Part shown: positions 6,042 to 15,040 of the stretch, one piece after another
How positions within the stretch are numbered: the first letter of the stretch is position 1
Layout: every line of letters starts with the position of its first letter
Source: Candidatus Brocadiaceae bacterium
GTDB taxonomy: Bacteria > Planctomycetota > MHYJ01 > JACQXL01 > CAKKQI01
Direction: 5' to 3'
DNA length: 18,856 nt
NCBI GenBank assembly: GCA_919901895.1
Contig: CAKKQI010000379.1
Coordinates: 1-18,856, forward strand
The notes under the pieces: generated by a model
Seen by the model: only the letters and a program-made list of their open reading frames with translations
Database searches by the model: none
What the model was told of the DNA's origin: nothing
Position numbers and translations under genes: made by a program

Positions 6042-6905
6042 TCAAATCATTATAAAATACATTATTACCGCAGTGAAGTTCAAGGCAATATGTCCGGCCA
6101 TGGCGCTTTCAACGCAACTCCGCCTGGTAAATTCACTAAATACAATACCAATAATAAATATCTGCAAGGATTTTATTGCCGGCATATCAGTATTAAAAAT
6201 ATGGAGTCCCGCCCATAATAATGAAACAAAAATAATTGAACCGATCACGGCCGGCCGTTTATTTCCGCTCAGCCGTAATAAAAATGCCTGGAGGCCACCT
6301 CTAAAAACTAATTCTTCTATCACCGCGGCTCCGGTTACAAATAGCAGAAGAACCGGGATACGAATAATAAGACCGGCTTCCGCGGCATGAGGAAACATCA
6401 ACGTTATTCTCTTAAGCGGTTCGCTTTCATTCATACCAAGGGCGACAAATATAACGGTGCTCACCACCCCGCTGACCACCCCAAAGATGGCCGCGGCCAG
6501 AATTACTTTCCAGGGAACATTTTTACTCTTCTTTAAAACGGTAAATGCCTCAGGCCTAATTTTATCCCACTCGGACACGGCGGCATAATAAACTATCATA
6601 TGCCAACCAATTTTAAGAATCAAAATACCCAACCCGACAATCAAGCCGATATATATGTAAATTTTTAAAAAGGGTTCCGGACGACCTTTAAGAATAACGG
6701 ACGGGTCAAAATATATCAGATTGAAAATAGCCGCGGGCAGGGTCATCAAAAAAACAATTATCCCAACAAACAGTCCTGTTTTATAGTACTTCTTTAATGC
6801 CTTCAAATTCAAAACGGCTAATACTACAAAAAATATAAATATTAAAACGCTTAAAGACAGGACAAAAATAGACTGGACCAGTTCCGAAAAATCAGGATAA
6901 AGCAT
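6042..6905 (-). CDS. CPBP family intramembrane metalloprotease (Abi/CAAX-protease-like)
   Basis: 287 residues, very hydrophobic, with about seven or eight membrane segments (for example 17-33, 45-62, 83-100, 135-155, 180-196, 218-235, 247-258, 272-286). The CPBP motifs are all present: EExxxR at 197-202 (EELVFR), H235 in LLWAGLH and HxxxN at 272-276. These would hold the catalytic glutamates and metal ligands of this glutamate-type membrane protease family. A good Shine-Dalgarno (AAAGGA, nine bases before the ATG) and a promoter at 6936-6964 support the start. Transcribed alone and convergent with pyrG. Substrate unknown; family members process prenylated or secreted peptides or serve in immunity. 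Confidence 0.85.
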   Translation of the reverse strand: MLYPDFSELVQSIFVLSLSVLIFIFFVVLAVLNLKALKKYYKTGLFVGIIVFLMTLPAAIFNLIYFDPSVILKGRPEPFLKIYIYIGLIVGLGILILKIGWHMIVYYAAVSEWDKIRPEAFTVLKKSKNVPWKVILAAAIFGVVSGVVSTVIFVALGMNESEPLKRITLMFPHAAEAGLIIRIPVLLLFVTGAAVIEELVFRGGLQAFLLRLSGNKRPAVIGSIIFVSLLWAGLHIFNTDMPAIKSLQIFIIGIVFSEFTRRSCVESAMAGHIALNFTAVIMYFIMI

Positions 6906-7292: not shown

Positions 7293-7392
7293 ATGCCGAT
7301 GCGACATAGTTTTTGAAGATATCCCGCTGGAAGCGGGATCCGTCCTTCGGCGGAGGTATATCCCGATGTAATAGATCGGGACAGGTCGGCAT
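7293..7392. repeat. palindromic repeat cluster between tRNA-Leu and the sigma factor gene
   Basis: The outer arms ATGCCGA (7293-7299) and TCGGCAT (7386-7392) enclose two strong hairpins: ATCCCGCT-GGA-AGCGGGAT (7321-7339) and TCCCGAT-GTAATAG-ATCGGGA (7361-7381). The word GGATCCGTCC (7336-7345) recurs, reversed, in the insert of the MetE-like gene (11613-11622). No gene is seen in the 235-base gap 7264-7498. Confidence 0.6.
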
Positions 7393-7404
7393 TACCTTTT
7401 TTTC

Positions 7405-7463
7405 CGCCAGAGGCGGATCAGTCCTACGGCTGACGCCAGAGGACGAATCAGTCCTTTGGCTGA
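7405..7463 (+). repeat. two tandem 29/30-base hairpin-forming units
   Basis: Unit 1 (7405-7433) and unit 2 (7434-7463) both read CGCCAGAGG, a short variable piece, ATCAGTCC, two variable bases, GGCTGA. Within each, TCAG pairs with CTGA; in unit 1 TCCGCC also pairs with GGCGGA (7403-7417). Unit 2 ends about 35 bases before the sigma gene. Confidence 0.65.
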
Positions 7464-7498: not shown

Positions 7499-8065
7499 AT
7501 GAATTTCCTATCGGATCAGGAATTGATTAACCTTTGCCGGGAAGGCAAACCGGAAGCATTCACTGTTCTCTACGAACGCTACCGACAAACCATAATGAAT
7601 TTCGCCTACCGGATACTTCGTGATTCTCACCTCTCAGCCGATGTGCTTCAGGAAACCTTTATCTACGTTTTTAAAAAATTACCAACCTATGAATCCAGAG
7701 CAAAATTCACCACTCTGCTCTTTCAGGTCGCCCGACATATCTCTTTTAATAAGTTAAAAAAAATAAAACACTTGAAAATCCAGCCGCTGCCCGAAGAAAT
7801 ATCCGGCCCGGACACAGAGATAAATTCAAATCCGGAAAAAATTTTACAGAATGAAGAAATCGGAAAAAATATTGCCGGGGCATTAAAACAATTACCCTTG
7901 CTGTACCGGGAAGTTATTAACTTGCGGATTATTCAAAACTTGCCTTACCGGGAAATAAGTGCTATACTTGATTGTCCGCTCGGAACCGTAAAATCAAGGC
8001 TCCATAACGGGTTGGAGATGTTAAGAACTTATTTAAGAAGTAAAATTGAACAAAATAAAGAATAA
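7499..8065 (+). CDS. ECF-type RNA polymerase sigma factor
   Basis: 188 residues, typical of extracytoplasmic-function sigma factors, with only regions 2 and 4. Region 2 spans about residues 20-88 and includes YRILRDSHLSADVLQETFIYVFKKL (region 2.1-2.2, core binding) followed by the -10 recognition helices. Region 4 spans about 124-180 with the helix-turn-helix LPYREISAILDCPLGTVKSRL that reads the -35 element. A charged linker of about 35 residues separates them. The next gene, 15 bases downstream, is a membrane anti-sigma factor, so activity is probably held at the membrane until a signal arrives. A canonical ECF promoter at 9301-9328 is the best target in the window. No Shine-Dalgarno is seen before the ATG. 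Confidence 0.93.
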   Translation: MNFLSDQELINLCREGKPEAFTVLYERYRQTIMNFAYRILRDSHLSADVLQETFIYVFKKLPTYESRAKFTTLLFQVARHISFNKLKKIKHLKIQPLPEEISGPDTEINSNPEKILQNEEIGKNIAGALKQLPLLYREVINLRIIQNLPYREISAILDCPLGTVKSRLHNGLEMLRTYLRSKIEQNKE

Positions 8066-8080
8066 ATTGCTTATATTATT

Positions 8081-8734
8081 ATGAAATGCCAAGAAATTAC
8101 TAACGATCTTCTCAATGATTATAACCAGGAGTCACTTGAGGAGACATTGTCTCAAAACATCAGAGGACATCTTACTGCCTGTAAACAATGTCTGTCGCGC
8201 CGAGAAGAAATTAAAAATATTACGGATTCACTCAAGCACTCGCCGGAATTAAATCTAAAAACACCAATTTCCGAATTGGTGGATGAAAAAATTTATACCG
8301 ATATCCACCGCCTGGTTGCCTCAAGACAACGTAAACCAGCCCAGACGACTCCAGGTAATTTCAGATTAATTTTACTCTCCACCGCTGCGGTTACCCTGTT
8401 CGGCATTTGCAGTTATTTCGTTTTAGAATTTTTGCTAACCGAACAAAAATTAAGTCCACCGCAAGAATTACCTACCACCGAAACCGGCACTGCTGTAATT
8501 TCAGATCCATCACTGTTACTACCTCAATCGGTTATTCAAACTAAAAAAATTAACGTTATTAAAGGCGATATTAATATGGATGGTGCATCAGATATCATTG
8601 ACAGCATGCTCATCTGCCAGTATATTTTAGATGAAAAAAAATTAGTGCTGAACGATTTAACCGCTGATATGAATAATGACGGCGAAGTTGACATCGGAGA
8701 TGCCCTGTTGATTGCCCAAAAAGTGATGGAATAA
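8081..8734 (+). CDS. transmembrane zinc anti-sigma factor with C-terminal dockerin domain
   Basis: 217 residues. Residues 1-40 form a zinc-binding anti-sigma (ZAS/zf-HC2) domain: C3 and the H30-x3-C34-x2-C37 motif (GHLTACKQC). A membrane helix covers about 95-118, so the C-terminus should lie outside the inner membrane. After a Pro/Thr-rich linker comes a complete dockerin (162-217) with two calcium loops: D163, N165, D167, D174 in the first and D196, N198, D200, D204, D207 in the second, each followed by the usual helix (SMLICQYIL, ALLIAQKVM). The gene follows the ECF sigma factor and precedes a cohesin-like lipoprotein, its probable binding partner. The N-terminal domain should sequester the sigma factor. 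A dockerin as the sensory domain of an anti-sigma factor is unusual. Confidence 0.88.
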   Translation: MKCQEITNDLLNDYNQESLEETLSQNIRGHLTACKQCLSRREEIKNITDSLKHSPELNLKTPISELVDEKIYTDIHRLVASRQRKPAQTTPGNFRLILLSTAAVTLFGICSYFVLEFLLTEQKLSPPQELPTTETGTAVISDPSLLLPQSVIQTKKINVIKGDINMDGASDIIDSMLICQYILDEKKLVLNDLTADMNNDGEVDIGDALLIAQKVME

Positions 8735-8750
8735 GATTATCTATAGTATG

Positions 8751-8792
8751 TCTGTGAAATCTGCGACAATCAGTAAAATCCGTTGTAATCAT
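8751..8792 (+). repeat. degenerate ATCTGTGA-type repeats before the cohesin gene
   Basis: Four or five words of the form ATCTGTGA/ATCTGCGA/ATCAGTAA/ATCCGTTG spaced about 10-11 bases apart fill the spacer up to the start codon at 8793. They resemble the ATTCGTGT repeats before kdsB. No ribosome binding site is visible. Confidence 0.5.
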
Positions 8793-9263
8793 ATGAAAAA
8801 ATTATTACTTTTATTCCTTATTGCCGGCCTGACCGGTTGCGCTACTGCTGATCAGCCGTCCTCCGTAAAATTACTTAAACTAAACTATGATAAGTCTTAC
8901 CCGGTTGACATCTGGATTGAATCTGGTGAAAATCAGGTCGGCGCTTATACCGTGACGCTTGAATATGATGCCGGCATTGTCAATATTAAAAATATCATCG
9001 TCCCCACCGGCTATAATTCTTTCCCCGGCAGTCCGATGGCCAATCAAGCCACTTTTACGACCGGTAAAACTATTATTACCGGTTTTTATCCGGGCAAAAA
9101 CTCTTTGAGCGGCCGGGTAAAAATCGCCACAGTCACTTTTCAAGCAATTAACCCGGGCACCAGCCCGTTCAAAACCACCCTGCAAAACCTCTATAATTAT
9201 TCCAGCCAGCCACTAAAAGGAAAAGTAATCCTTTCCACTGATAGCATCACCGTTAGCAAATAA
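8793..9263 (+). CDS. cohesin-like domain lipoprotein, likely partner of the dockerin anti-sigma factor
   Basis: 156 residues from ATG 8793; an upstream in-frame ATG at 8748 would put 15 extra residues, encoded by spacer repeats, before an otherwise perfect signal peptide. MKKLLLLFLIAGLTGC has lipobox LTGC with C16 as the lipidated residue and Ala at +2, which by the E. coli rule favours the outer membrane. Residues 24-156 look like a cohesin: YPVDIWIESGENQVGAYTVT, then LEYDAGIVNIKNI, a GK/TGFYPGKNSLSGRVKIATVTFQA strand set and a final beta strand. The cohesin beta-sandwich order (VDV..V.GYQFTLEYDP..L, later SG.L.TVTF.) fits. It follows the dockerin-bearing anti-sigma gene by 58 bases, strongly suggesting binding between the two products. 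Cohesin assignment is by motif pattern and neighbourhood. Confidence 0.78.
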   Translation: MKKLLLLFLIAGLTGCATADQPSSVKLLKLNYDKSYPVDIWIESGENQVGAYTVTLEYDAGIVNIKNIIVPTGYNSFPGSPMANQATFTTGKTIITGFYPGKNSLSGRVKIATVTFQAINPGTSPFKTTLQNLYNYSSQPLKGKVILSTDSITVSK

Positions 9264-9300: not shown

Positions 9301-9328
9301 TGAACTTTTCACCTTATTTAACGTCTAA
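9301..9328 (+). promoter_or_regulatory. canonical ECF sigma promoter upstream of the vWA gene
   Basis: TGAACTTTT (9301-9309), 16 bases from GAAC to the next box, then CGTCTAA (9322-9328). GAAC with CGTC at this spacing is the usual ECF promoter form. The predicted transcript has about 100 bases of leader before the vWA gene at 9438. The rest of the 174-base gap holds an AT palindrome with TATAAT (9371-9376) and the hairpin ACTCGCT-N7-AGTGAGT (9400-9420, one mismatch) just before the ribosome binding site. Confidence 0.65.
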
Positions 9329-9437: not shown

Positions 9438-11060
9438 ATGAGGAATTTTATAGCCATCTTAATGGGATTGGGCCTGGCCGTATTGTTGGTCTTGGGAATA
9501 AGTATGAACAATTGCATATCTTATAAAACAAGGCGATCAATGTCTGATAATTATAAAGTTGCCTGTTTGAGCGCCCCTTCTCCTTCTCAACCAGTCGGAG
9601 TTATTTCAGAAACAGAACCGGATTTTTACCGCCAGGATTTTAATACTGAATCTTATGACCGCGTTTATGAAAATCCTTTTCTATCGGTACGTCAAAATCC
9701 CCTTTCCACTTTTTCCATTGATGTGGATACGGCTTCTTACGCCAATGCCCGCCGTTTTTTGAACGAAGAACAGTTCCCTCCCAAAGATGCGGTGCGAATA
9801 GAAGAATTTATTAACTATTTTTCTTATTATTACCCGCCACCGGAAGGGAATAAACCTTTTTCGGTTAATATTGAAACATCAGAATGTCCCTGGGCTAATA
9901 ACCACCGATTAGTACGTATCGGTTTAAAAGGAAAAGAAATTACGCTGGAAAATCGACCACTCAGCAACCTGGTTTTTCTGATTGATGTTTCCGGTTCGAT
10001 GCAACCGGATAATAAGTTACCACTAGCTAAAAAAACGATGCAATTATTGGTGGAACAATTAACCGAAAACGACCGGGTAGCCATAGTGGTTTACGCCGGT
10101 GCTTCCGGATTAGTCCTGCCAGCCACCACCGGAGACCAAAAAGAAAAGATTCTTTCTGCTTTAGGCCGACTTGAAGCCGGCGGTTCCACCAACGGCGGAG
10201 AAGGAATCCAACTGGCTTATCAAATCGCTCTGTCTAATTTCATCAAGAATGGTATTAACCGGGTTATCCTGGCCACAGATGGTGATTTCAATATCGGGGT
10301 TACCAATCAAGGAGACCTAATTCGGCTGATTGAGGAAAAAGCAAAGAGCGGTGTTTTTCTAAGCGTGCTGGGATTCGGGATGGGTAATTATAAAGATTCA
10401 ACTCTGGAAAAATTAGCCGATCAGGGTAACGGTAATTATGCCTATATTGATACGCTCAACGAAGCCCGTAAAGTGCTGGTGGAACAAATGAGCGGCATGC
10501 TTATTACCATTGCCAAAGACGTTAAGATTCAGGTGGAATTCAACCAGGCGCAGGTTACGGCTTATCGCTTAATTGGTTACGAAAATCGGTTACTCCGGTC
10601 TGAAGATTTTAACGATGATAAAAAAGATGCCGGCGAAATCGGCGCCGGTCACACCGTTACCGCCCTTTATGAAGTGGTTCCGACCGGTCAGGAAATCAAT
10701 TTTTCTTCGGTGGACCCATTAAAATATCAACCACAAATGGAAACCGGCCGGACCACGCACAGCAATGAACTCCTGACGGTTAAACTTCGTTACAAAAAAC
10801 CGGATGGCGATATGAGTCAACTTTTAGAATTTCCGGTAACTGATAGTGGCAGTAAACTTAACTCTGCTTCAAGTGATTTTAAATTTGCCGCGGCGGTGGC
10901 GGCCTTCGGAATGATTCTACGTGATTCTGAATATAAAGGAAACGTAACTTTTGACAGCGTTCTTAAGTTAGCCCAGGAAAACGCCAGGTCGGATGAATCT
11001 GGTTACCGCTCTGAGTTTATCAGTCTGGTAAAGAAAGCTAAAAAGATCAAGAAAGATTAA
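9438..11060 (+). CDS. von Willebrand factor A domain protein, YfbK-like (with DUF3520-type C-terminus)
   Basis: 540 residues with a strong Shine-Dalgarno (AAGGAGG, eight bases before ATG). Residues 4-21 form a membrane or signal segment; C26 is not in a normal lipobox, so a membrane-anchored periplasmic form is likely. Residues 78-160 are the conserved YfbK N-terminal region (ENPFLSVRQNPLSTFSIDVDTASYANARRFL). The vWA domain spans about 177-355 with a full metal-ion site: D183-x-S185-x-S187, T251 and D281. Residues about 360-535 match the C-terminal YfbK/DUF3520 region (SDFKFAAAVAAFGMILRDSEY, SGYRSEFISLV). The family's role is unclear; vWA domains bind protein partners through the metal. An ECF promoter upstream points to control by the neighbouring sigma factor. 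Its last 14 bases overlap the convergent MetE-like gene. Confidence 0.88.
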   Translation: MRNFIAILMGLGLAVLLVLGISMNNCISYKTRRSMSDNYKVACLSAPSPSQPVGVISETEPDFYRQDFNTESYDRVYENPFLSVRQNPLSTFSIDVDTASYANARRFLNEEQFPPKDAVRIEEFINYFSYYYPPPEGNKPFSVNIETSECPWANNHRLVRIGLKGKEITLENRPLSNLVFLIDVSGSMQPDNKLPLAKKTMQLLVEQLTENDRVAIVVYAGASGLVLPATTGDQKEKILSALGRLEAGGSTNGGEGIQLAYQIALSNFIKNGINRVILATDGDFNIGVTNQGDLIRLIEEKAKSGVFLSVLGFGMGNYKDSTLEKLADQGNGNYAYIDTLNEARKVLVEQMSGMLITIAKDVKIQVEFNQAQVTAYRLIGYENRLLRSEDFNDDKKDAGEIGAGHTVTALYEVVPTGQEINFSSVDPLKYQPQMETGRTTHSNELLTVKLRYKKPDGDMSQLLEFPVTDSGSKLNSASSDFKFAAAVAAFGMILRDSEYKGNVTFDSVLKLAQENARSDESGYRSEFISLVKKAKKIKKD

Positions 11061-12509: not shown

Positions 12510-13037
12510 ATGTCATATAAAATTCTCAAAACCGAAGAAATTTACCGCGGGAAGATTTTTAACGTCCGGCGCAGTCAGCTCAACCTGAAAAACGGACGGA
12601 ACACCTGGTGGGAGATGGTCGCCCATAACGGGGCGGCGGTCATCCTGCCTCTCCTTTCGCGGAATAAAGTCATCCTGGTCTACCAATACCGCTACCCAAT
12701 TAATAAATCTATCTGGGAACTGCCGGCCGGCCGGCTGGAACGCGGAGAATTACCGTTAACCTGCGCCCGGCGGGAACTCCAGGAAGAAATCGGCTGCACG
12801 GCCCGCCGTTTCAAAAAAATGATTACTTTTTATAGCACCCCGGGCTTTACCAGCGAAAAACTTCATATTTTCGCGGCAAAAGGATTAACACCTTCTTACG
12901 CTTGCCCCGATGATGACGAAAAAATTAAAACCCGCGTCTTTACCCGCCCGGAAATAGTTAAACTAATCAACCAAAATAAAATTATTGATGCCAAAACGCT
13001 GATCGGATTAATGTTATGGTTACGGAATCAGATTTAG
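12510..13037 (+). CDS. Nudix hydrolase, ADP-ribose pyrophosphatase type
   Basis: 175 residues. A perfect Nudix box spans about 74-96 (G-x5-E-x7-REL-x-EE-x-G: GRLERGE, then RELQEEIG), holding the magnesium-binding glutamates. YSTPGFTSEK follows about 15 residues later, with the proline characteristic of ADP-ribose pyrophosphatases. The preceding VILVYQYRYPINKSIWELPAG segment is also typical of that subfamily. It would hydrolyse ADP-ribose to AMP and ribose 5-phosphate in the cytosol, clearing a reactive NAD breakdown product. Its last 22 bases overlap the start of the next gene, so the two are probably translated together. Family is certain; ADP-ribose as substrate is inferred. Confidence 0.92.
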   Translation: MSYKILKTEEIYRGKIFNVRRSQLNLKNGRNTWWEMVAHNGAAVILPLLSRNKVILVYQYRYPINKSIWELPAGRLERGELPLTCARRELQEEIGCTARRFKKMITFYSTPGFTSEKLHIFAAKGLTPSYACPDDDEKIKTRVFTRPEIVKLINQNKIIDAKTLIGLMLWLRNQI

Positions 13038-13567
13038 TCTTCGGTGAAATCGCCATCAAAACCAGACTGGTCACGGCCCGGCAGATTGACGAAGCCATTA
13101 CCATTCAGCATGGGTTGCCTGAATGGAAACCGCTCGGATTAATCCTTCTGGAAAAACAATATCTCACCAAGGAACAACTGGAGAACATTATTGATATCCA
13201 GAAACGGAACCTGGAAACCCGAGCGATTCAACTTCGTTATATTAAAGAAGACAACATCTTCGGACGCTTGGCGATTAAACTCAATCTGGCTACGGAACAG
13301 CAGGTCGAAGAATGCCTGGGCGTCCAGTTAATGATGCAGGATGATTATTTGTTACGTCTGGGCGAACTGATGGTGAAAAAAAAATACCTTTCCGGCACAG
13401 ACGTAAAAAAAATACTGGAATACCAATCCGCCCAGGTAATTCATTGCCCAAAATGCGATACGAAATATAACGTCGTGTTATTTAACCCGGGCGCCAAATT
13501 TATCTGTTATGAATGCGAAACAGAGTTGACGGTACCGAAAAATTTAACCAGTACGATGAATTTATAA
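13016..13567 (+). CDS. four-repeat helical (GspE N-terminal/MshEN-like) protein with C-terminal zinc ribbon
   Basis: 183 residues, no signal peptide or membrane segment. Four similar units lie at about 9-31, 40-62, 82-104 and 115-137, each of the form FGEIAIKxxLVTxxQIDEAIxxQ. This is the pattern of the GspE/PilB/MshE N-terminal domain, which in some proteins binds cyclic di-GMP. A zinc ribbon follows: C144-x2-C147 and C164-x2-C167. No ATPase domain is present, so it is not a complete type II/IV secretion motor. It overlaps the Nudix gene by 22 bases and ends 132 bases before acsC. The spacer 13568-13699 has a promoter at 13573-13601 and the acsC Shine-Dalgarno. Function unknown. Confidence 0.7.
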   Translation: MVTESDLVFGEIAIKTRLVTARQIDEAITIQHGLPEWKPLGLILLEKQYLTKEQLENIIDIQKRNLETRAIQLRYIKEDNIFGRLAIKLNLATEQQVEECLGVQLMMQDDYLLRLGELMVKKKYLSGTDVKKILEYQSAQVIHCPKCDTKYNVVLFNPGAKFICYECETELTVPKNLTSTMNL

Positions 13568-13699: not shown

Positions 13700-15040
13700 A
13701 TGGCTTTAACCGGATTGGATATTTATAAACTGTTACCCAAGACCAACTGCGGCGAATGCGGCACGCCGACCTGCTTGGCTTTTGCGATGGCCCTGGCCGG
13801 TAAAAAAACTTCATTAGATAAATGCCCTCATGTCTCGGCTCAAGCTAAAACCGCCCTGGAAAGCGCCTCGGCCCCGCCCATCCAACTGGTTACCATCGGA
13901 ACCGGACCCAATAAGTTGGAAATCGGCAATGAGACCGTAATGTTCAGACATGAACAAACTTTCTATCACCCTTGCGGCATTGCCATTGAAATACCCGATA
14001 ATCTGCCGGCTGATGAAATCAAAAAACGCACTCAGACAATCAATAACCTCATCTTTGACCGGGTCGGCAAAAAAATTCATGTGGAACTGATTGCTCTCAG
14101 AGACGTCAGCCATAATCCTGATACCTTTGCCAATGCCGTCAAAACAATCACCGCTTCTTCCCAACTGGCTTTGGTCCTGGTAAGTTTTAATCCGGGTATT
14201 ATAGAAGCCGGTCTAAAAATCTGCGCTTCCGCAAAACCGCTTATTTATGCGGCCAATCAGGAAAATTACCAGGCCATGGCTGAACTGGCTAAAAAATATG
14301 ATTGCCCACTCGGCGCGGCCGGAAAAAATCTGGATGATTTAAGCGACCTGACCGTTAAGATCACCGCCCTGGGCGTAAAAAATCTGGTTATTGACCCGGG
14401 TTCAGCAGACTTATACCGCCGGCTTAACGATATTACCCAGATTCGTAAACTTGCTTTAAAAAAGACCTTCCGGCCGTTCGGATTTCCGATAATTACTTTT
14501 ACGCCGGAAAATATTTCACCCGAAGAAGAACCGATGTATGCCACGGTTTTTATTGCCAAATATACCGGTATCGTCGTGGTCAAAGGCCGCGCACCATGGC
14601 AGATACTGCCGTTAATCACGCTCCGGTTAAATATTTATACCGACCCGCAGAAGCCGATCCAGATTGAATCTAAAATTTATGAAATCGGTGCGGTCACGGC
14701 CTCATCGCCGGTTCTAGTTACCACCAACTTCTCACTGACCTACTTTACGGTGGAACCGGAAATTGAAGGCAGCAAAGTACCCAGTTATATACTCGTGGTT
14801 AATACTGAAGGAATGTCGGTTTTAACGGCCTATGCAGCGGATAAATTAAACGAAAAGGTAATCACTAAAGCGTTAAATGATTATAATGTTAAAAGTAAAG
14901 TAACTCATAAAAAGGTAATTATTCCGGGCTATATCTCGGCCATGAGCGGAAAATTGGAAGCAGAATCCGGTTGGGAAGTGATGGTTGGCCCGCGCGAGGC
15001 ATCCGGAATTCCGACTTATCTTAAAAATGTCTGGAAATGA
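13700..15040 (+). CDS. acsC: corrinoid iron-sulfur protein large subunit (acetyl-CoA synthase/decarbonylase gamma subunit)
   Basis: 446 residues, normal full length. Part of the methyl branch of the Wood-Ljungdahl pathway: CFeSP carries a methyl group on cobalamin from methyltetrahydrofolate to acetyl-CoA synthase. The N-terminal 4Fe-4S site is C17-x2-C20-x4-C25-x16-C42 (TNCGECGTPTCLAFAMAL and DKCPH). A TIM-barrel middle domain (KKIHVELIALRDVSHNPDTF, LSDLTVKITALGVKNLVIDPG) and a C-terminal cobalamin-binding region (PSYILVVNTEGMSVLTAYAADKL) follow. The Shine-Dalgarno AAAGGAG, about eight bases before ATG, and the promoter at 13573 are strong. The usual partners acsD, acsB and acsE are not in this window, so the gene is either separated from them or a stand-alone copy. 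Confidence 0.95.
   Translation: MALTGLDIYKLLPKTNCGECGTPTCLAFAMALAGKKTSLDKCPHVSAQAKTALESASAPPIQLVTIGTGPNKLEIGNETVMFRHEQTFYHPCGIAIEIPDNLPADEIKKRTQTINNLIFDRVGKKIHVELIALRDVSHNPDTFANAVKTITASSQLALVLVSFNPGIIEAGLKICASAKPLIYAANQENYQAMAELAKKYDCPLGAAGKNLDDLSDLTVKITALGVKNLVIDPGSADLYRRLNDITQIRKLALKKTFRPFGFPIITFTPENISPEEEPMYATVFIAKYTGIVVVKGRAPWQILPLITLRLNIYTDPQKPIQIESKIYEIGAVTASSPVLVTTNFSLTYFTVEPEIEGSKVPSYILVVNTEGMSVLTAYAADKLNEKVITKALNDYNVKSKVTHKKVIIPGYISAMSGKLEAESGWEVMVGPREASGIPTYLKNVWK

Follow-up and report, generated by a model that had tools for sequence, protein, structure and literature searches.

The window analysed here, a stretch of 18,856 nucleotides, is one contig of a draft genome of a Candidatus Brocadiaceae bacterium (2.5 Mb, 93% complete, 4.75% estimated contamination). 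In the window, a tRNA-Leu gene is followed by three genes on the same (+) strand, coding for a sigma factor, an anti-sigma factor, and a lipoprotein. The first gene (7499..8065) codes for a protein of 188 amino acids that matched the Pfam families Sigma70_r2 (1.2e-12) and Sigma70_r4_2 (8.3e-14), and that scored 95.2 bits against the NCBIfam profile TIGR02937, whose cut-off is 42.9. With regions 2 and 4 only, in about 190 residues, it has the architecture of an ECF sigma factor, in agreement with the preliminary description of this DNA. The stretch that separates the tRNA-Leu gene from the sigma gene contains a 20-base repeat in three copies (7335-7463), and upstream of the three genes the opposite strand codes for an Rce1-like CAAX membrane protease (6042-6905; Pfam). 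The protein encoded at 13016-13567, farther downstream, is small; it gave two matches to MshE-related c-di-GMP motifs, and its C-terminus resembles a zinc ribbon by eye. A CODH/ACS gamma subunit is encoded at 13700-15040 (598 bits), and the organism may therefore have a pathway of the Wood-Ljungdahl type.

The second gene (8081..8734, + strand; protein-database entry P0002) codes for a membrane anti-sigma factor of 217 amino acids with a C-terminal dockerin. A hydrophobic stretch at residues 97-115 (8369..8425; hydropathy maximum 2.08) bears out the single membrane helix described before. It is followed by a spacer (8426..8560) and by a type I dockerin at residues 161-215 (8561..8725), which scored 34.1 bits against PF00404 (cut-off 22.9). 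Both calcium loops (residues 163-174 and 196-207; 8567-8602 and 8666-8701) match D-x-N-x-D-G-x-x-D-x-x-D perfectly, and the best sequence match to a solved dockerin had an E-value of 1.3e-4; the two-loop dockerin that had been read from the sequence is thus secure. Before the helix, C3, H30, C34, and C37 (8087..8191) form a Cys / His-x3-Cys-x2-Cys arrangement, which we take to be the ligand pattern of zinc anti-sigma (ZAS) factors. The ZAS assignment, originally made from H30, C34, and C37, gains C3 and holds for the motif; it does not hold for the profiles, where the best of the weak matches to curated NCBIfam anti-sigma profiles reached 16.3 bits, below the cut-off of 50, and where zf-HC2 of Pfam gave no match at E up to 1. 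The protein can be called ZAS-like by motif only. The RsgI N-terminal domain, the Pfam domain that presumably marks RsgI-type anti-sigma factors, was likewise absent at E up to 1, and Pfam matched no outer domain other than the dockerin.

The third gene was listed as an open reading frame starting at 8748. This start is probably wrong because the protein has a normal signal peptide with a lipobox when translated from 8793, and the resulting lipoprotein of 156 residues (8793..9263, + strand) is also the form in the protein database. The lipobox L-T-G-C places the lipidated position at Cys16, followed by Ala17, so that the earlier reading as a lipobox protein stands with the start at 8793. Asp follows the lipobox Cys in none of the 11 rows of the family alignment (0/11); the sorting rule for this residue comes from E. 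coli and may not be that of the host.

Sequence searches with the third protein gave no cohesin; its fold was settled by structure comparison. PF00963 gave nothing at E up to 1, and the profile of the protein matched only lipoprotein signal regions among solved structures. The best match of the single sequence to a solved structure, a photosynthetic reaction-centre chain (E 0.0071), was rejected. In the protein database, a single lipoprotein or a single anti-sigma query returned only the window itself, and an alignment query returned 7 proteins, including the window's own, when the 7999 candidates sharing most words were scored. The AlphaFold model (pLDDT 89.2) has the cohesin jelly-roll fold over residues 28-156 (8874..9260, + strand), and a protein of the second subtype described below likewise has a cohesin fold in its structure model. 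A profile comparison of five window-type proteins with six Pfam-positive cohesins gave a probability of 95.1 and an E-value of 3.5e-8. With E up to 1 allowed, three of 11 members of the lipoprotein family matched the Pfam cohesin model, the best at 2.8e-5, and one relative (G030) just passes its cut-off (24.2 vs 24.1 bits). The cohesin-like domain of the preliminary description is thus supported by the fold and by the family profile, and fails in Pfam for the window protein alone; we class the product of gene 3 as a cohesin-fold protein and not as a Pfam cohesin.

In the 2.5 Mb genome, the search for dockerins found the window's alone, and the search for the cohesin-like family likewise found a single gene, the one in the window; no Pfam cohesin was found. 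The pairing is more than chance because these two genes adjoin. That the likely partner of the dockerin is encoded next door, as had been proposed, agrees with these two single-copy, adjacent modules, which we regard as a predicted pair.

A profile of the lipoprotein was searched against 392 genomes of Planctomycetota; with up to nine candidates scored in each, it gave 40 matches in 37 genomes. The remaining 355, including a genome of the same family (G001), gave no match. An independent profile, from the second subtype, recovered the window at E 6e-9 and matched 33 of the 392 genomes in all. Within the phylum, the module is thus patchy. The cohesin is directly preceded by a dockerin, or fused to one, in 36 of the 40 loci, 33 of them found by profile and three by eye (L026, L059, and L073). 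The four other matches (L074, L079, L082, and L083) have the lowest scores for the family, 42 bits or less, and sit in other proteins, some of which are Pfam cohesins; they were dropped from the module loci, a step that is partly circular because they also lack the neighbour, and the count is therefore given as 36/40. Of the 36 module loci, 26 have an ECF sigma gene directly upstream in the same orientation and 2 have one on the other strand; among the remaining 8, contig ends interrupt L023, L027, and L028. The three-gene order seen in the window thus recurs in relatives, in favour of the earlier interpretation.

Dockerins were searched in 39 genomes, the 37 with the lipoprotein family and two relatives without it. 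Exactly one match was present in 16 of them; among the 14 positions listed for these single dockerins, 13 are beside the cohesin gene and one (G023) is in the same gene. G034 and G042 are the other two genomes with a single match. Ten of the 39 genomes had no dockerin match, eight of them with the lipoprotein family (G016, G011, G018, G020, G022, G026, G262, and G323). The Planctomycetota genomes G319, G084, G097, and G078 have 30-102 dockerin matches in all, and pair specificity would be interesting in these dockerin-rich organisms. Two clear dockerin-cohesin fusions were found, L107 and L121/L070, the latter on contigs of equal length that are apparently one assembly and were counted as one; L073 is a doubtful fusion, with a short signal peptide possible in the same frame. 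The fragment from L121, a natural fusion with a short linker, was predicted to fold as a dockerin plus a cohesin, with a pTM of 0.83 as the sole read-out and five linker residues below a pLDDT of 50. The alignment behind the second model has about nine residues out of place where its cohesin rows begin; another alignment, with misplaced dockerin rows, was set aside. In G042, a 99-residue membrane dockerin (L026:7707-8004) lies directly before a cohesin lipoprotein (8007-8501). It has no anti-sigma part, and no sigma gene was found in the 8.9 kb examined, so the pair may also have a non-regulatory, structural role.

The sigma factor was also used as the starting point, with a profile that is biased towards its sources, the window and four relatives that have the module. 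Among the best 80 of 158 loci, 47 have the complete triad, 6 have dockerin and cohesin on the opposite strand, one has the cohesin farther away, one ends after the dockerin, and one (L166) has a cohesin with no dockerin called. An ordinary zinc anti-sigma factor without dockerin is present in 14, neither this nor the module in 6, and the other 4 lie at contig ends. None of these 14 ordinary loci is titled Planctomycetota, and they include Calditrichota, Clostridia, Nitrospirota, and Elusimicrobia; five of the 6 empty loci are titled Planctomycetota or Phycisphaerae. Twelve of the 47 triads are titled Gammaproteobacteria, Woeseia, Woeseiaceae, or Pseudomonadales, and in the Gammaproteobacteria triads the dockerin call is half a module with weak scores of 15-20 bits. 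Such recurrence in Planctomycetota and some Gammaproteobacteria suggests an undescribed type of envelope sensor.

The loci fall into two subtypes, the window type and a larger type. By eye, the cohesin carries a lipobox in all 12 untruncated window-type loci, and the zinc motif is present in 11 of these 12, L062 being the exception. In the larger type, the cohesin mostly has an ordinary-looking signal peptide without a lipobox (by eye), and the zinc motif is mostly absent, with L028 and L065 having it. In the window type, 39-197 residues separate the dockerin from the membrane helix (median 105, n=12, without the truncated L023 and L027); in the other type, this spacer has 5-138 residues (median 18, n=62, without two fusions), and eight spacers have 39 residues or more. 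The difference gave P 2.1e-7, or 5.2e-6 with four loci of one genus taken as one, in a post hoc regrouping of loci that are not independent. The loci were regrouped by profile subtype because the automatic lipobox calls were wrong for some of them: inspection by eye makes lipoproteins of L017, L023, and L058, which had been called negative, and not of L076 and L171, which had been called positive, and leaves L071 and L101 ambiguous. Grouping by the automatic calls gives a weaker difference (P 0.023). In four of six window-type anti-sigma factors examined, the spacer is heptad-rich and coiled-coil-like over stretches of 150-189 residues, which would span some 22-28 nm if helical throughout at about 0.15 nm per residue; the spacers of the window and of G003 are not filled in this way, and that of the window is short and proline-rich. 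A long spacer in the lipoprotein subtype would fit a reach towards a lipid-anchored partner in the outer membrane. It is possible, though doubtful, that the module acts as an envelope ruler, in which an outer-membrane cohesin lipoprotein would hold, across the periplasm, the dockerin of the inner-membrane anti-sigma factor, the length of the spacer would set the reach, and failed sorting of the lipoprotein or a changed distance between the membranes would break or strain the tether and so release sigma.

Downstream of the three genes, 9438..11060 (+ strand) codes for a vWA protein of the YfbK type (YfbK_C 1.6e-78, vWF_A 8.8e-41, VWA 2.1e-20), possibly a fourth member of the module or its target. 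A vWA metal-site motif is present within 3 kb downstream in 37 of the 43 sigma-selected cohesin loci with room and in 0 of the 25 sigma-selected loci that have no cohesin, a group in which some loci end early; none was found 2.5-5 kb upstream in any locus where sequence was available. In the lipoprotein-profile loci, a set that overlaps with the sigma-selected one, the motif is present in 18 of 33 with room (16/19 of the larger type and 2/14 of the window type). Seven of eight larger-type downstream proteins scanned are VIT-vWA proteins in Pfam, and the eighth (L061) matched nothing. This fourth gene of the larger subtype is related to the VIT-vWA family TIGR03788 (marine sortase target), against which four of five proteins scanned scored 459-498 bits, below the cut-off of 551.65. 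In the literature searched, no report tying VIT-vWA proteins to ECF sigma factors was found. In two Woeseia-type Gammaproteobacteria (L146:6419-9469 and L162:6416-9379), the VIT-vWA protein is lipoprotein-like by eye, and the gene after it codes for another putative lipoprotein, of about 265 amino acids, possibly a fifth gene. In G003, a DUF4349 protein (L016:8956-10185) takes the place of a vWA protein downstream of the module.

A motif search placed an ECF-type promoter-like site, TGAAC-N16-CGTCT, before the vWA gene (9301..9326, + strand). The motif has 1 match in the window against 0.07 expected, and at least one match occurs in 12 of 200 shuffled sequences; as an ECF target, the site is suggestive only. 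GAAC-N15-18-CGTC was found in none of 64 regions upstream of sigma genes, against 2.1 expected. In the same regions the hexamer GGAACT occurred 17 times against 3.2 expected; it was read as coding, and rejected as a promoter element, because few copies are left when 5, not 30, bases past the start of the sigma domain are included.

The module is real and conserved, though patchy, and it carries a predicted dockerin-cohesin link. We propose, with a probability of about 0.6, that it is an envelope-sensing ECF unit in which the cohesin-fold protein is a dedicated, normally bound co-sensor on the anti-sigma dockerin. The anti-sigma factor would hold the sigma factor inside the cell and end in a dockerin outside, onto which the secreted cohesin-fold protein encoded next to it would dock and normally stay bound. 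The state of this complex, set by its ligand, by where in the envelope it sits, or by whether the cohesin is present, would decide whether the anti-sigma factor is kept or cleaved, and the freed sigma factor may drive the neighbouring vWA envelope gene and perhaps others. We infer the binding, proteolysis, promoter use, signal direction, and outer-membrane location that this proposal includes. The natural fusions argue that the bound state is the normal one, and the one-to-one pair together with the fusions favours a lasting complex with the cohesin-fold protein as co-sensor. Cleavage by a site-2 protease is possible; M50 (site-2 type) proteases are present in the genome and in all 14 of 14 control genomes, and therefore add little support. 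With its lipid-anchored cohesin and the long spacer of its anti-sigma factor, the window subtype would probably also use the complex to tether the inner membrane to the outer-membrane lipoprotein. The bridge between the two membranes put forward in the preliminary description is in this sense plausible for the window subtype with its long spacer, and is not supported as a general rule, since most larger-type cohesins have no lipobox.

The preliminary description had also suggested a switch that dissociates, in which low calcium or a competing dockerin protein would break the pair and release sigma. The calcium dependence of dockerins is well established, and the two perfect loops of the window speak for such a switch. 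However, one or both loops fail the strict motif in many relatives (one of the two in Gammaproteobacteria, both in L107), L166 has no dockerin called, and fused versions would be unable to separate by diffusion. No other dockerin that could compete was found in the genome. With decayed loops, no competitor found, and most cohesins without a lipobox, calcium or competition is unlikely to be a general mechanism, and we consider a dissociable switch quite improbable for the window as well. The fusions, which imply a lasting complex, would also suit a pair that merely anchors the cohesin (and the vWA) protein at the membrane while the signal enters elsewhere, and the membrane dockerin of G042, paired with a cohesin lipoprotein and free of any anti-sigma part, points the same way. 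A purely structural pair is nevertheless rather unlikely, as the sigma factor stands directly upstream in 26 of the 36 module loci and the window's anti-sigma factor matched no other outer domain.

The divergence of the lipoprotein family from classical cohesins, with binding between the neighbours a prediction, leaves some room for a dockerin partner other than the adjacent protein. We regard this as very unlikely, given that no Pfam cohesin was found elsewhere in the genome, and that dockerin and cohesin adjoin or are fused in 36 of 40 loci. A chance or horizontal juxtaposition without functional meaning might be suspected in a single contig when the contamination of the draft genome is estimated at 4.75%, but the order is conserved in Gammaproteobacteria as well as in many families of Planctomycetota, and this explanation has next to no credibility. 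The reading that we prefer is the envelope-sensing unit with a bound co-sensor.

No cohesin-dockerin-linked sigma module was found in the literature searched, mostly papers outside subscription, which agrees with the earlier statement that no system of this form was known. The survey of non-cellulosomal cohesins by Peer and co-workers may contain an earlier mention of such a module. To our knowledge, cohesin-dockerin pairs outside cellulosomes have few clear jobs so far; if our reading is true, a conserved sigma/anti-sigma unit gives them a signalling role, and Planctomycetota and Woeseia-type Gammaproteobacteria gain an envelope sensor that can be named. The spacer difference between the subtypes makes the tether model directly testable, and the module offers a simple test with one binding pair and one sigma reporter.

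Several known systems share parts of this arrangement. Outer-membrane lipoproteins that contact an inner-membrane regulator across the periplasm are known from RcsF/IgaA and NlpE/CpxA, and the window system differs from them in its proteins, folds, and output. In the sigma-E system, the periplasmic RseB binds the outer domain of RseA and gates its cleavage, much as a periplasmic protein is proposed here to bind the outer domain of the anti-sigma factor; as far as we know, RseB does not belong to the cohesins, and no dockerin is present in RseA. Cohesin and dockerin are the two folds of the cellulosome and of the 'planctosome', the latter proposed for peptide degradation in freshwater Planctomycetes, and such pairs are described there, or proposed, as a way of assembling enzymes on scaffolds (PMC6461901). 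Unlike in these assemblies of a cohesin scaffold with dockerin enzymes, one dockerin, on an anti-sigma factor, and 0 Pfam cohesins were found in the 93% complete genome. The closest described logic is that of sigma-I/RsgI in cellulolytic clostridia, where the membrane anti-sigma factor is paired with its sigma gene and carries outer CBM, PA14, or similar modules as proposed polysaccharide sensors (PMC3413522). The window shares the membrane anti-sigma factor with an outer sensory module beside its sigma gene; unlike in RsgI, this module is a dockerin, and its likely ligand is a protein encoded next door.
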